Origin: Haladaptatus litoreus
Lineage (GTDB): Archaea; Halobacteriota; Halobacteria; Halobacteriales; Haladaptataceae
Direction of reading: 5' to 3'
NCBI RefSeq assembly: GCF_900156425.1
Contig: NZ_FTNO01000001.1
Location: forward strand, 1,798,001 to 1,862,000
DNA length: 64,000 nucleotides
In this document: positions 2,193 through 54,873 of the stretch, one piece after another
Layout of the letters: every line of letters starts with the position of its first letter
Numbering within the stretch: the first letter of the stretch is position 1
Program-made: the position numbers and the translations under genes
Notes under the pieces: generated by a model
The model's database searches: none
What the model was told of the DNA's origin: nothing
What the model saw: only the letters and a program-made list of their open reading frames with translations

Positions 2193-3770
2193 TTACTGGT
2201 ACTCGGTGATGGTCAGGTCGTAGCTACCCGAACCACTGTAGGAGTCCACGTCGATCTGTAGCGCAGTCGAGGTGTCTGGGTTGTCGATGGTGATGGTTTC
2301 CTGACTGTTCGTGGTGGTGGATGCATAGTCGTAGTTGCCCGGACTTGCGTTGGTCGTCGTCCCCTCGTTGATGAAGAGGTCGAAGTCCGCGTTAGACGGC
2401 CCGTCGAGTTCGACGACGATTTGGCTCGGACTGCTGTACTCCCAGTTCCACGAGTAGTCGGCGTAGTCGGCGTAGCTCGACAGCGAGCCACTGACCGTCT
2501 CGGTCGTGGAGTCACCGCTTCCGCCATCGTCGCCGCCGTCGTCGCCGCCGCTACCGGGTTCGGTGGTAACCGCATTGTAGGCGTCAACCTGTCCTGCACC
2601 CTGTTTGTCCGACGAGAGGCCGATGTCCTTCGCCGTCGCCTTCAGGTGACTTCGGAGTTCGTTGTTCGAGAGACTCGACCATTGTGCGAGCGCCAAACCG
2701 GCGACACCGGACGTGACGGGCGTCGCCATCGAGGTACCGCTGAATTGCGCGTAGCTGTCGGTCGGAATCGTGGAGAGAACGTCCACACCGGGTGCAGCGA
2801 GGTCAACGTCACCGTACTGGGAGAACGAAGCGAGGTTTTCGTTGCTGTCCACTGCCGAGATAGCCATACATTCGCTGTAGGCCGCCGGATAGGAGACGCT
2901 GCTACTCCCGTTGTTACCTGCAGCACAGATGATGAGCGAACCTTGGTTGTTCGCGTACGACACCGCGTTCTTCATCGTGCTGTTGTATCCACCGCCACCA
3001 AGGGACATGTTGATGATGTCCGCGCCTTGGTCTGCGGCCCATTCGACGGCGTCCGCGATGTCTGCCGTGGAACCGCTTCCGCTCTCGTCGAGCGCGCGGC
3101 CGTTGATGAGCGAGGAGTTGCTCTGTCCGGCGACGCCGGTGCCGTTGTCGATGACTGCAGACGCACAGCCGGAAACGTGGGTACCGTGTTGTTCGTTCGC
3201 TGGGTCGTCCGGGTATGGGTCGGAGTCGCCGTCAGCGAAGTCGTAGCCGGGGTTGGATTTGTAGTTCGCCGCGAGGTCTGGGTGGTCGTACTGCGCACCC
3301 GTGTCCACGACAGCGATGGTCACGTCAGAAGAACCGAGACCTGCCGTGTCCCACGCTTGGTCTGAGCCGACCTGCTGTGGCGCGTACTGGTCGCCGAACT
3401 GCGGGTCGTTCGGCGTCAGTTGCGTCGAGAGCGTCTCGTTTTTCTCAGCGTACTTGATACCGGGACGGTTCTCGATAGCGTTGATGAAGTTCTCACGAGC
3501 CGTCTCGTTGCCGGGAACTTTCACAGCGACATATCGAAGCTTGTCGTTTTTGTGAACGATTTCCGCATTGCCCATCGTATATTGGGCAACCTTCTGTTCG
3601 ATGTCCCCTTCACCCGCAGAGATACCGACCAGCACTTCGTCTTCTTTTGGTCCTGGTTCACGGCCCGGCGTCGCCGCAGTAACCCCACCAAGGGCTGCAG
3701 CAGCACCGACTGCGCCGGTCGTTTTCAGGAACGTCCGCCTGTCAAATCGAGATGTGTTGTCGTCTGCCAT
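2193..3770 (-). CDS. Halolysin-like subtilisin (S8) protease, Tat-exported
   Basis: A secreted serine protease of 525 residues. The start at 3770 is chosen because it places the twin-arginine motif (RRTFLK, residues 11-16) at the N terminus, followed by an alanine-rich h-region; export should therefore be of the folded protein. An inhibitor-type propeptide covers roughly residues 40-115. The catalytic triad is complete: D156 in VVDTG, H195 in HGTH, S347 in GTSMA, with the oxyanion Asn near 286. After a Gly/Asp-rich linker near 410-430, a beta-rich domain of about 95 residues resembles the bacterial PPC extension, consistent with the C-terminal domains known in halolysins. Its upstream region is AT-rich. 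No dedicated inhibitor or regulator lies alongside. Confidence 0.93.
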   Translation of the reverse strand: MADDNTSRFDRRTFLKTTGAVGAAAALGGVTAATPGREPGPKEDEVLVGISAGEGDIEQKVAQYTMGNAEIVHKNDKLRYVAVKVPGNETARENFINAIENRPGIKYAEKNETLSTQLTPNDPQFGDQYAPQQVGSDQAWDTAGLGSSDVTIAVVDTGAQYDHPDLAANYKSNPGYDFADGDSDPYPDDPANEQHGTHVSGCASAVIDNGTGVAGQSNSSLINGRALDESGSGSTADIADAVEWAADQGADIINMSLGGGGYNSTMKNAVSYANNQGSLIICAAGNNGSSSVSYPAAYSECMAISAVDSNENLASFSQYGDVDLAAPGVDVLSTIPTDSYAQFSGTSMATPVTSGVAGLALAQWSSLSNNELRSHLKATAKDIGLSSDKQGAGQVDAYNAVTTEPGSGGDDGGDDGGSGDSTTETVSGSLSSYADYADYSWNWEYSSPSQIVVELDGPSNADFDLFINEGTTTNASPGNYDYASTTTNSQETITIDNPDTSTALQIDVDSYSGSGSYDLTITEYQ

Positions 3771-3896
3771 ACAGCACGCTAACAAACCTCCCGCCTATAT
3801 TTAAATTTTACCTATTTAGTTCGGAAATCTGTAAAATAATATCAATAAATAAAGGCGAAGTGGTCTGGTACTAATTGATGTCGAGAGTTAATTACC

Positions 3897-3906
3897 AATA
3901 TTAAAT
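3897..3906 (+). promoter_or_regulatory. TATA box for NYN-domain gene
   Basis: The AT-rich element AATATTAAAT lies 22-31 bases before the ATG at 3928. This spacing predicts transcription starting at or next to the start codon (leaderless mRNA) and supports 3928 rather than the downstream Met at 3973. Confidence 0.5.
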
Positions 3907-3927
3907 GTAGAGATACACCACAATCGA

Positions 3928-4464
3928 ATGCGTTTCAAAACGACTCCGGCAGCAGTGAGAATCGCCACGGCTATGTCCGGGTATCCGTTAGTTCGACGCA
4001 TGACTGGCGGCTTGCGGTCGGTACTCGGCGGAACGAGTGACGACGACGACACAACCGTCGCGCTGTTCGTCGATGGCCCGAACGTGCTCCGCGACGAGTT
4101 CGACGTGGATTTAGACGACGTTCGAACGGCGGGGCGGGAACTCGGCCAACTCGTGGTTGCCCGGCTCTACCTCGACGAGCACGCGACCCCCGGCCTGATT
4201 CAGGCGGCGGAAGCGCGCGGGTTCGAGGTCGTAATCACGAGCGGCGACGTCGACGTGAAACTCGCCATCGACGCGACCGAACTCGCGCTGGACGAGCGCG
4301 TTGACGCGCTCGCCATCGCGTCGAGAGATACGGACTTCAAACCAGTGCTGGAGAAAGCGGCGCGAAACGGTATCCGGACGGTCGCCATCGCCCCCGGCGA
4401 ATACGGCCGTTCGGACGCGCTTCAAAACGCGGCACACGACGCGTTCGTCATCGAAGAAGAGTAG
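3928..4464 (+). CDS. NYN-domain (PIN-like) ribonuclease-type protein
   Basis: A 178-residue protein of the NYN/LabA-type family (TIGR00288-like), a PIN-related fold usually linked to RNA cleavage. The fold's acidic residues are visible: D49 in LFVDGPN, the aspartates in SGDVDVKLAID near residue 108, and ASRDTDF near 131. The first 40 residues form a basic, mildly hydrophobic extension before the domain. A TATA box 22-31 bases upstream supports the start used. The RNA substrate is unknown. The TatD-like gene follows 31 bases later on the same strand. Confidence 0.8.
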   Translation: MRFKTTPAAVRIATAMSGYPLVRRMTGGLRSVLGGTSDDDDTTVALFVDGPNVLRDEFDVDLDDVRTAGRELGQLVVARLYLDEHATPGLIQAAEARGFEVVITSGDVDVKLAIDATELALDERVDALAIASRDTDFKPVLEKAARNGIRTVAIAPGEYGRSDALQNAAHDAFVIEEE

Positions 4465-4495
4465 GCGTTTTTTCCCCGGAGCGAGACGGATAGAT

Positions 4496-5344
4496 ATGAA
4501 CGAACTCGGCACGCCGGTACTCGACAATCATCTGCATTTAGACCCGGAACACGGACGGGGAATCGAAGCGGTCAAGGATTTCGCGCGGAGCGGCGGGACG
4601 CATCTCTTCGTCGTCAACAAGCCCTCGTGGTTGCTCGGCGTCGAGGCCGAGAGCGGTGACGATTTCAGAACGGTGTTCGACACTACCGTCGATGTCGTCG
4701 CGCGCGCAAACGAGATACTACCCGGAAAAGCGTGGCCCGTCCTCGGCGTTCATCCCGGTCTGATTTCGAAGTTAGTAGACGACCGCGGGTACGCGCCCGC
4801 GGACGCGCGTGACCTGATGCAGGCTGGACTGGAAGTTGCGAGCGAATATGTCGCAGATGGTTCCGCCCTCGCGCTGAAATCCGGACGACCGCATTACGAC
4901 GTGACGGACGAGGTGTGGGATGCTTCGAACGCGGTGCTTCGGCGCGCACTGGAGTTGGGCGCGGAAACCGACTGTGCAGTCCAACTTCACACAGAGGGAA
5001 CCGACGACCTCACCGACGTTGCGGAGTGGGCGGAAGATGCTGACCTCGCGCCCGAGCGAGTCGTGAAACATTACGCAGGTGGGAAGTTGGCGGGCGTGAC
5101 GCCGAGCGTGATGAGCGAAAAAGAGCGGCTAACGGTCGCCGTGGAGCGTGGTGAACCGTTCCTGATGGAGACGGATTTCGTCGATGACCCCGACAGGCCG
5201 GGGGCAGTGATGGGACCGAAAACGGTTCCGCGGCGGGTCAGTTGGATGCAAGAGCAGGGGTACGACGACGGGGTTCAAACGGCCCACGTTTCCACGCCAG
5301 AGCGAGTGTACGGGGTAGACACACTCGAAACACTCTCCCGATAG
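4496..5344 (+). CDS. TatD-family metal-dependent hydrolase (archaeal type)
   Basis: A 282-residue TIM-barrel amidohydrolase-like protein. The HxH metal motif sits near the start (DNHLHLD, residues 10-16). Further histidines occur in GVHPG, QLHTEG and VKHYAG, and acidic METDF lies near the end, matching the order of metal ligands in TatD-like hydrolases (COG1099-like archaeal branch). Some bacterial TatD proteins are DNA 3'-exonucleases, but the substrate of this branch is not established. The open frame extends upstream, but only the ATG at 4496 gives a sensible N terminus; it lies 31 bases after the NYN gene, suggesting co-transcription. Confidence 0.8.
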   Translation: MNELGTPVLDNHLHLDPEHGRGIEAVKDFARSGGTHLFVVNKPSWLLGVEAESGDDFRTVFDTTVDVVARANEILPGKAWPVLGVHPGLISKLVDDRGYAPADARDLMQAGLEVASEYVADGSALALKSGRPHYDVTDEVWDASNAVLRRALELGAETDCAVQLHTEGTDDLTDVAEWAEDADLAPERVVKHYAGGKLAGVTPSVMSEKERLTVAVERGEPFLMETDFVDDPDRPGAVMGPKTVPRRVSWMQEQGYDDGVQTAHVSTPERVYGVDTLETLSR

Positions 5345-50351: not shown

Positions 50352-51113
50352 ATGAACCTCGCCGAACTCACCGAGGAGTACGACGCCCGACTCCGAACGA
50401 GCGACTTCGCGGACGTGGACGCGAGCGCGAACGGGCTACAAGTCGGCCCGGACGAAAAGGAAGTAGAGCGCGTTGCCTTCGCCGTGGACGCCGCAGAGAA
50501 GACCATCGAGGACGCTGTGGAGTGGGACGCAGACGCGCTGGTCGTCCACCACGGCCTATCGTGGGGCGGCATCGAACGCGTGACGGGGCGCGACTACAAC
50601 CGAATCGCACCGCTCATCGAAAACGACGTGGCGCTGTACGTTTCGCATCTCCCACTGGATTCGCATCCGGAACTGGGCAATGCGGCAGGAATCGCCGACC
50701 TCCTCGAACTCGATTCCAGAGAACCGTTCGGGAGCATAGGACCGGAACACATCGGCCAGCGCGGGCGCGGCGAACTGACGGTCGAAGAAATCCGCGACGA
50801 GTTGGCCGACGAACTCGACACCGGGGGACGGGAGATACGAGTGTTCGACTTCGGCCCCGAAACAGTCGAGGATGTAGCCATCGTCACCGGAAGCGGCGTG
50901 GATTGGCTGGACGAAGCCATCGACGCGGGGGCTGACGCGCTGATTACTGGCGAAGGAAAACAGAAGGTGTACCACGAGGCACGGGAGGCCGAAATCAACG
51001 TCCTCCTCGCGGGGCACTACGCAACCGAGACGTTCGGCGTGCAGTCGCTCCAGTCGCTCGCGGAAGAGTGGGGACTAAAAACGACGTTCATCGACGAGCC
51101 GACGGGACTGTAA
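50352..51113 (+). CDS. NIF3/YbgI-family dimetal hexameric protein
   Basis: A 253-residue protein of the Nif3-like family (formerly GTP cyclohydrolase 1 type 2). Metal ligands appear as ALVVHHGLSWGG (His pair near 64-65), SHLPLDSHPELGN near 98 with Asp and His, and GHYATETFGVQSL near 220 with His and Glu. Family members form toroidal hexamers with dinuclear centres and no settled function. The ATG at 50352 is used. Confidence 0.88.
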   Translation: MNLAELTEEYDARLRTSDFADVDASANGLQVGPDEKEVERVAFAVDAAEKTIEDAVEWDADALVVHHGLSWGGIERVTGRDYNRIAPLIENDVALYVSHLPLDSHPELGNAAGIADLLELDSREPFGSIGPEHIGQRGRGELTVEEIRDELADELDTGGREIRVFDFGPETVEDVAIVTGSGVDWLDEAIDAGADALITGEGKQKVYHEAREAEINVLLAGHYATETFGVQSLQSLAEEWGLKTTFIDEPTGL

Positions 51114-51165
51114 CTGCTAATCGGCCGAAGTATCACCACTGCACTACCGCAGAATGACTTCCCTA

Positions 51166-51275
51166 CAACGACTACCACGGAACCATAGAATGACTACCAC
51201 AAAATCGTGACTGAACTACGGGATGATGGCGACTGAACTACTGTACAATGTTAACTGAACTACCTGATTTTTCAT
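51166..51275. repeat. 22-bp iteron array, five units
   Basis: Units start at 51166, 51188, 51210, 51232 and 51254, an exact 22-base period. The conserved word is GACTAC in the first two units and ACTGAACTAC (51210-51219, 51232-51241, 51254-51263) in the last three. The spacing places all copies on one DNA face, as in operator or replication iterons. The array precedes the structured-RNA candidate. Confidence 0.6.
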
Positions 51276-51320
51276 CCTGATTTTTCCGAAATCGTCATAC
51301 GATTTCGTGGAAACAGATGG

Positions 51321-51329
51321 TATTAAAAG
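51321..51329 (+). promoter_or_regulatory. TATA-like element before the structured-RNA candidate
   Basis: TATTAAAAG lies between the iterons and the folded region. It would place transcription start near 51347-51352, close to the closing stem at 51355. Confidence 0.45.
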
Positions 51330-51346
51330 GGGGGACGACGAGAATT

Positions 51347-51470
51347 TGGACGTGTCCTGCGGGTTTCAACGGTTCGAGAGAACCGCCGGGACTATCGGAG
51401 TCACGTCCCGGTCTTGCAGGAGACGGGCCGCCGCCGACCGGCCCCGACAGCCGAGCCTTCGGGTTGCGGC
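51347..51470 (+). ncRNA. Candidate structured non-coding RNA
   Basis: A compact set of stems: a closing helix TCCTGC (51355-51360) with GCAGGA (51416-51421) encloses CGGTTC-GAGA-GAACCG (51370-51385, GNRA tetraloop) and CCGGGAC/GTCCCGG (51386-51392 with 51405-51411), forming a three-way junction. Next come GGGCCG/CGGCCC (51425-51430 with 51439-51444) and a hairpin GCCGAGCC-TTCG-GGTTGCGGC (51450-51470) with a UUCG tetraloop and one bulge. Conserved words of RNase P RNA, SRP RNA and tRNA are absent. The 3' end is not defined. Frames on either strand here are Pro/Gly/Arg-rich and do not look coding. Confidence 0.45.
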
Positions 51471-51621
51471 TAATCGAAGCGTCTCTGGCGTCTGACTCCG
51501 CGTCACGCGCGCCCTTCGTGGCAGTCGGCAACACAGTTTCTCCAATCAGATGACGGTATGAGAACCATCAGCACAGCGACCGGAACAGGGATGCTGCGGG
51601 ACGACGCAGTGACGCATTCAA

Positions 51622-52287
51622 ATGAGTTTTATCGTCGAAATCGAAATCCCAGTGGATGCATTTCCGTTAGGGGAACTCGTCCAACGGTATCCGGACGCAC
51701 ATATCGAACTCGAACAGCTCGTTCCCGCGGACGACGGCTTGCTCCCGTTTTTCTGGATTCGGAACGTCAGTGCAGGCGAAATCGTCGAAACCGAGGAGGA
51801 AGAACCCGCACTCGAATCCGTCTCCGTCCTCGACGATACTGGCGATGCGCTACTCTGTCGAATGACGTGGAACCGCGACCAACCCGGATTACAGGACATC
51901 ATCGTGGACGGACAGACGACGCTCCTCGGCGGAAGTGGGTCGTCGGACGGCTGGTATTTCCAGTTCCGGTTTACTACCCACGTCGCCGCGAGTCGGTTGC
52001 GCGAGGAACTTTCGGCGCGGTCGATTCCCTTCGAAGTGATGCGCGTCTACTCGGTACAGGAGATGCGCGAACGACAGTACGACCTGACCACAGAACAGTA
52101 CGACGCGCTGGTTTCGACGCATCAAGCGGGTTTCTTTAGAACACCGCGTCAATCGACGTTGGCGGAGGTCGCACAGGAACTCGACATCACCCCACAGGCG
52201 CTGTCGGCCCGGTATCGGCGCGGGTTGGATTCACTGCTCGACAGCACGCTGTACGAAATCGGTGATGATTCTGCATCGGGGAAATAA
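51622..52287 (+). CDS. HTH-10 (Bat-like) transcriptional regulator
   Basis: A 221-residue regulator of the bacterioopsin-activator type. Residues 1-150 form the N-terminal sensor region (beta-rich, acidic). Residues 165-215 contain the HTH-10 domain, with YDLTTEQYDALVSTHQAGFF and TLAEVAQELDITPQALSARYRRGLDSLL as the helix-turn-helix. Such proteins respond to light, redox or unknown ligands. It lies directly downstream of the iteron/RNA locus and may regulate it or neighbours. The ATG at 51622 gives the family N terminus (MSFIVEIEIP). Confidence 0.85.
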   Translation: MSFIVEIEIPVDAFPLGELVQRYPDAHIELEQLVPADDGLLPFFWIRNVSAGEIVETEEEEPALESVSVLDDTGDALLCRMTWNRDQPGLQDIIVDGQTTLLGGSGSSDGWYFQFRFTTHVAASRLREELSARSIPFEVMRVYSVQEMRERQYDLTTEQYDALVSTHQAGFFRTPRQSTLAEVAQELDITPQALSARYRRGLDSLLDSTLYEIGDDSASGK

Positions 52288-54471: not shown

Positions 54472-54873
54472 GTTCGTCACGTTGGCGCGGACAGAGACAA
54501 TCGTTTTTTAGGAGCAGTACTGTAGTTGAACGTGGCCGATGACGAAAACAGGTGTTCCGAGCTAGTCTGGCGGCTGGTGGTGACGAACCCTATGAGTGCC
54601 GAGGCCAATCGATTACGAAAGCACGAGGCTACCGTTTCGAAACTGGTCGGGAGTGAGAAGCAAGAACATGGCACAGTACCGAGATAAAAGCTGTAGATAC
54701 TACGGAAGTCTCCGCTCGTTGTGCAAATAGAGCAGTATATCAACGTAAAACTGCCCATCAATAACCGAATGGCCATCTAACCACCTACAATCAGTACATT
54801 TGTACAGTAAGAATCGAATTTTGAGGACGAATGCGGAACCCTTAACCGTGTCCCCCATTTGTATTTAGTTGTA
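54472..54873. other. Gap between membrane protein and cold-shock gene
   Basis: About 400 bases. A 99-codon minus-strand frame here is poor in acidic residues and is not convincing. CCCTTAACCG about 35 bases before the cold-shock ATG may be part of its promoter. Nothing else is recognised. Confidence 0.3.

Follow-up and report, generated by a model that had tools for sequence, protein, structure and literature searches.

OmegaRNAs (also called reRNAs) are the guide RNAs of the TnpB nucleases of IS200/IS605 insertion sequences (IS). In haloarchaea, omegaRNAs or sense overlapping transcripts (sotRNAs) of IS elements are already known (PMC12558985), and in the ISDra2 omegaRNA a pseudoknot joins the stem 1 loop to the bases immediately 5' of the guide (PMC10097598). 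Bacteria are known to contain, in addition, the TnpB-like nuclease-dead repressor (TldR), which works with a guide RNA and for which a 6-nucleotide (nt) seed suffices (PMC13418256). Here, we analyzed a stretch of 64,000 nt from Haladaptatus litoreus (contig NZ_FTNO01000001.1, positions 1,798,001 to 1,862,000 of the forward strand; hereafter the window, whose numbering is used for coordinates in this stretch). Comparative sequence evidence indicates that a structured intergenic RNA in the window is almost certainly a stand-alone derivative of a TnpB omegaRNA.

Like the omegaRNAs of ISDra2 (PMC10097598) and of haloarchaeal IS elements (PMC12558985), the window RNA has a pseudoknot to the stem 1 loop, further hairpins, a hairpin at the right-end position, and a scaffold end followed by a tail. 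Unlike the IS omegaRNAs, it lies neither at a tnpB end nor inside a mobile element, has its own TATA promoter and the extra arms P2 and P3, and is present as a single copy at a fixed place, with a tail that is conserved between species rather than element-specific. The solo haloarchaeal omegaRNA/IS605-like elements have the same RNA body with recognizable left and right ends and no tnpB; these are dispersed, multicopy, and followed by varied sequence, whereas the window RNA is fixed, without IS ends, and under selection. The family formed by Haladaptatus, Halorussus, and Halomicrococcus resembles the TldR systems (PMC13418256) in having a domesticated TnpB with an inactivated RuvC domain and a conserved zinc ribbon, in vertical inheritance, and in a short guide position. 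It differs from them in being archaeal, in that the putative guide RNA is encoded in trans at another locus instead of beside tldR, in the loss of the dead tnpB's own 3' omegaRNA, and in that the searches made identified no target.

Structure and omegaRNA kinship of the intergenic RNA

The stand-alone RNA was found as a single copy in 28/28 family genomes by DNA search and covariance model, with DNA identities of 82-90% within the genus and 74-81% in a second genus. Weak matches in two genomes from the first DNA search were short GC-rich stretches and were excluded. The minimum-energy fold of the window RNA was only mildly unusual when taken alone (z -1.7 against shuffles), and the structure claim therefore rests on comparative evidence. 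In the family alignment (A1), 95.5% of cells were paired and 12 pairs had changed on both sides, with 0/500 shuffles as high on either measure, while slid controls of the same alignment gave 21-42% paired. This comparative pairing backs each of the elements that a first-pass annotation had read from the window sequence, namely a three-way junction with a GAGA loop, a GC-rich stem, and a UUCG hairpin; conservation of the stems in relatives, which it had put forward as a check, was borne out, the RNA being kept in 28/28 family genomes with compensatory pair changes. The annotation had also placed the structured RNA correctly, although the conserved RNA runs beyond the end given there, to about 51541 (Table 1). 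Indels between species are 1-3 nt long in A1, so the RNA is unlikely to be coding, in line with the earlier noncoding call.

Table 1. Features of the RNA gene and its upstream region (window coordinates)
Feature	Position	Strand	Basis
22-bp phased repeats, upstream of promoter	51149-51265	+	lag-22 signal; same register in 6/9 Haladaptatus
Palindrome CGAAATCGT-CAT-ACGATTTCG	51287-51307	.	perfect inverted repeat; largely kept in compared Haladaptatus relatives
TATA box TATTAAAA, preceded by GAAAC resembling a TFB recognition element (BRE)	51321-51328	+	closely similar box in 28/28 loci
Stand-alone RNA, very probably omegaRNA-derived	51348-51541	+	model match 51348-51540; exact 5' and 3' ends inferred
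5' three-way junction	51352-51424	+	covarying pairs in P1, P2, P3
P1	51352-51361/51415-51424	+	covarying pairs
P2, GAGA loop	51370-51374/51381-51385	+	covarying pairs
P3	51386-51392/51405-51411	+	covarying pairs
P4 hairpin (GC-rich), corresponding to omegaRNA stem 1	51425-51444; pairs 51425-51429/51440-51444	+	R2 top match in 64 kb
Pseudoknot 5' strand GCCGAC, inside P4 loop	51433-51438	+	pairs in 27/27
P5 hairpin AGCCGAGCC-UUCG-GGUUGCGGCU	51449-51471	+	covarying pair C-G/A-U/G-U
P7 and P8 hairpins, at position of IS omegaRNA right-end hairpin	51479-51522	+	alifold consensus, some two-sided changes
Pseudoknot 3' strand GUCGGC, at position of IS right-end GUUGAC (scaffold end)	51524-51529	+	full pairing 27/27 and 19/19
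12-nt tail AACACAGTTTCT in guide position, with terminal T-rich terminator-like stretch	51530-51541	+	conservation in 10 genomes

When a covariance model built from the family's stand-alone RNA (R1) was searched across the order, weaker matches were found beyond the family. Some were short solo IS200/IS605-like units, in which a related RNA body stands between a left-end hairpin and the right end GGGGTAGTTGAC or CCCGTGGCAGTTGAC. One match overlapped a tnpB gene at its 3' end, and the subfamily of this gene was then gathered. R1 matched the 3' ends of 19/26 active tnpB genes in this subfamily, at 8-38 bits. A second covariance model, built from the IS/tnpB omegaRNAs alone (R2), detected the stand-alone RNA in 22/22 loci tested (best E value 1e-8), and its top match in the entire 64-kb window was P4 (51419-51444, E 0.005). 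The two models are thus reciprocal, each detecting the RNA set of the other. The first-pass description of an undescribed, promoter-driven structured RNA holds in part: the RNA is there, but the view that it is unlike any known archaeal RNA gives way to its very probable omegaRNA descent.

Full-length IS copies were used to set the element borders, which are a left flank T(T)YAAC and a right end GTTGAC. The pseudoknot between the P4 loop and the last scaffold bases was fully paired in 27/27 stand-alone RNAs and in 19/19 tnpB-linked omegaRNAs. It reads GUCAAC/GUUGAC in the IS elements, GCCAAC/GUUGGC in Halorussus, and GCCGAC/GUCGGC in Haladaptatus including the window, amounting to two compensated changes. 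Nested folding prefers another partner for the 3' strand, the CCGAY directly after P4. We favor the P4-loop pairing for the compensation at both variable positions and for its agreement with the solved omegaRNA.

Solo IS200/IS605-like units with an omegaRNA and no tnpB were recorded at 19 loci; such units are dispersed over many haloarchaeal genomes, with at most six R1 matches in any one genome.

The nuclease-dead TnpB as proposed partner

A TnpB query from locus L071 returned one similar-scoring match per family genome searched. When the dead copy of the window genome (P0002) was the query, the protein was present in 27/28 family genomes, all except one assembly that is 62% complete, and in 0/366 other genomes of the order, where the next best matches were active copies of ~54% identity. 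Its gene lies away from the RNA locus in the window genome, at 573435-574673 of contig C3. In 10/10 genomes compared, it occupies the same place, with an M50 peptidase/SRAP pair on one side and cupin and DEAD-helicase genes on the other; SRAP is an abasic-site protein. In locus L132, the dead tnpB gene covers 3433-4674 on the minus strand.

The RuvC-II glutamate is replaced by Gly in 27/27 dead TnpBs, the RuvC-I aspartate by Ala or Ser in 9/9 of those from Haladaptatus, and the RuvC-III aspartate by His in four, while 26 active relatives carry the D-E-D catalytic residues. The zinc cysteines (CCCC) are kept in all 27. All dead copies fall into a single clade, supported at 100 in the Shimodaira-Hasegawa-like approximate likelihood ratio test (SH-aLRT), and their ratio of nonsynonymous to synonymous substitution rates (dN/dS) is 0.07-0.24, mostly ~0.1. 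The predicted structure, of medium confidence (predicted local distance difference test [pLDDT] score 68), gave Foldseek E-value matches to Cas12f and TnpB, with low global template modeling (TM) scores. At the 3' ends of the dead tnpB genes, R1 found an omegaRNA in 0/27, and a guide RNA adjacent to the gene, as for tldR, was not seen there. Together, these sequence comparisons show a protein that is vertically inherited under purifying selection and has lost its catalytic residues and its own omegaRNA, and an RNA that is likewise vertically fixed and under purifying selection.

TnpB copies are numerous in the window genome (~20 OrfB_IS605 matches), including a dense OrfB_IS605 (tnpB) cluster on contig C6. 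At four loci of this genome, Gly is aligned at the RuvC-II glutamate column, perhaps reflecting an alternative catalytic layout in those sequences. R1 gave no good match at the own-genome OrfB_IS605 loci recovered by PF01385, and many resident TnpBs therefore belong to other subfamilies.

Model, guide position, and competing explanations

We propose that the ancestor of the Haladaptatus/Halorussus/Halomicrococcus family carried an IS200/IS605-type element, or a solo omegaRNA unit that stemmed from one, and that this became fixed there. It would have lost mobility and kept a promoter, with phased upstream sites gained in the Haladaptatus lineage. The window RNA would then be a guide RNA, encoded in trans, for the nuclease-dead TnpB that the family keeps in single copy. 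P4 and the pseudoknot would dock it in this protein, the short tail that follows the scaffold (AACACAGUUU..) would provide a short guide, and the complex would bind nucleic acid rather than cut it, as a TldR-like regulator. Because RNA and protein share a common origin, the protein has lost its own RNA, and the two distributions match, we consider their partnership likely; that it is physical and regulates by DNA binding is what we infer. Guided DNA binding by the complex is somewhat favored on balance, and the model as a whole, a domesticated omegaRNA guiding a dead TnpB in trans as a TldR-like regulator, carries a similar, modest preference. The chances are about even that the family possesses an archaeal RNA-guided regulator in the full sense, with a dead TnpB, a separate and independently regulated guide-RNA gene, a short fixed guide, and assembly in trans.

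The tail in the guide position (AACACAGUUUCU) has an identity of at least 90% at each of its 12 positions in 10 Haladaptatus/Halomicrococcus genomes, and conservation drops beyond it. The Halorussus tail follows the pattern ANYACMGNTT, and positions 1, 4, 5, 7, and 9 are 94-100% kept family-wide. An element-specific guide of ~16 nt was not found; the 12-nt tail is common to the species and is followed by divergent sequence.

Several observations weigh against the proposed model. R2 gives the window copy a weak score of 12 bits (E 0.005). The codistribution of RNA and dead TnpB rests on one ancestral branch of the tree and is not independent evidence, so the 28 genomes do not count as separate trials. 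Halorussus dead TnpBs retain both aspartates, and their inactivity therefore rests on the lost glutamate, while some other TnpB subfamilies in the window genome likewise align G at this column. The Halorussus tail is variable at positions 2, 3, and 6, which is unusual in a guide seed. Target searches were also negative. When the tail was combined with an earlier guess of the transposon-adjacent motif (TAM), TTCAA, counts were not above those of a reversed-pattern control; with the TAM T(C/T)AAC, derived from full-length elements, no conserved chromosomal target was found, a match of <7 nt or with another TAM lying beyond the resolution of this search. The exact 11-nt tail had no orthologous site genus-wide in nine Haladaptatus genomes; beyond the RNA locus, the sole recurrence was a homologous pair of sites between two genomes. 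Within the dead-tnpB locus, no consistent site for the tail was found. A shorter seed, a different TAM, a target in foreign DNA, or a role without DNA targeting is possible.

The absence of a DNA target in these searches would be expected if the RNA and the dead TnpB formed a complex without DNA targeting, whose tail is a terminator only and whose role is structural, RNA-binding, or regulatory without a guide. The T-rich end of the tail, the end of conservation after 12 nt, and the variation of seed-like positions in Halorussus fit this alternative, which we regard as unlikely: the conservation of the tail, both at the five family-wide positions and over all 12 positions in Haladaptatus/Halomicrococcus, exceeds what a terminator needs, and a 6-nt seed suffices for a bacterial TldR (PMC13418256), a length below the resolution of the target searches. 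The RNA could instead be a decoy without a guide: by tying up the active TnpB nucleases that resident IS elements encode, it would protect the genome. The many OrfB_IS605 matches would supply such nucleases, and the RNA keeps the scaffold while missing an element-specific guide of normal length. However, its pseudoknot differs in sequence from that of the IS omegaRNAs, R1 is almost without matches at the resident TnpB loci, many of which represent other subfamilies, and the codistributed dead TnpB is left unexplained, making a decoy distinctly improbable. Given the clear IS origin and the solo omegaRNA units that are common in related genomes, the RNA might also be a decaying, functionless IS remnant; its single copy in every family genome, compensatory pair changes, and conserved TATA box and tail contradict this and leave it a very small probability.

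Genomic setting, promoter region, and implications

In the window, the intergenic region follows a NIF3-like gene (50352-51113) and contains, in order, the repeats, the TATA box, and the RNA, after which comes an HTH_10/BAT gene (51622-52287; Pfam assignments). In many relatives, the RNA has a similar setting, with a NIF3-like gene on one side and deoxyhypusine synthase or HTH-10/HalOD1 on the other; no tnpB was found beside it, nor was it placed at a tnpB 3' end, at this locus across the family genomes. The HTH-10 gene is variably present and is missing beside the conserved RNA in four Haladaptatus/Halomicrococcus loci (L006, L007, L008, and L010). Since the RNA is kept while this neighbor comes and goes, it is a gene of its own; the HTH-10 gene is incidental to it, and the link that the first-pass annotation had suggested between the two is not supported. 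The HTH-10 gene is on the same strand and starts ~80 bases past the RNA, but a role of the RNA as its leader or riboswitch, acting in cis, is the least probable explanation of all.

The 22-bp iterons described upstream in the earlier annotation proved genuine: lag-22 self-identity over 51140-51272 was 0.55, the best among lags 6-65, and was equaled in 0/5000 Markov resamples. Three units have exact AACTAC cores, at 51214, 51236, and 51258, and two degenerate units lie further upstream. Relative to the TATA box, the core was found in Haladaptatus at -63 in 9/9, at -85 in 6/9, at -107 in 5/9, and at -129 in 2/9, its copies following the 22-bp register without exception; in the promoter comparison of 28 loci, this series was not found in Halomicrococcus or Halorussus. 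The palindrome just 5' of the TATA box is a candidate operator of the RNA gene. The TATA element, which had been correctly placed after the iterons, has a near-constant spacing to the RNA across 28/28 family loci. In Halorussus, a TTGA(A)/TTGAAT motif lies 22 nt from the TATA box, a spacing equal to that in the tnpB promoters of IS elements, and the stand-alone RNA promoter may have been inherited, as a fossil, from a tnpB promoter. Four Halorussus promoters carry TTCAACTTGAAT, which includes the IS TAM TTCAAC.

Other identities for the window RNA were rejected. The suggested Rfam scan gave no credible match over it and none above the gathering score, and Rfam release 15 did not detect the omegaRNA kinship. 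RNase P RNA is encoded at another place in the genome, and by inspection the tail ANYACMG has no conserved ACA box of an H/ACA small RNA (sRNA). The sole match above the gathering score in the window was to sR-tMet, a C/D box RNA, at 54534-54606 (+; 55.1 bits).

In the open-access literature searched, we found neither an archaeal nuclease-dead TnpB system nor a trans-encoded omegaRNA gene, and the novelty of the arrangement is provisional. Starting from an intergenic RNA, this analysis names the two halves of a probable RNA-guided system for a whole archaeal family. The move of a guide RNA to its own gene and promoter would lead towards separate guide-RNA genes of the kind that CRISPR systems have. 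If true, the arrangement would be an archaeal counterpart of TldR whose split-locus architecture has no match in the literature searched. Together, the conserved RNA and the dead TnpB in the same species suggest a home-made RNA-guided regulator.
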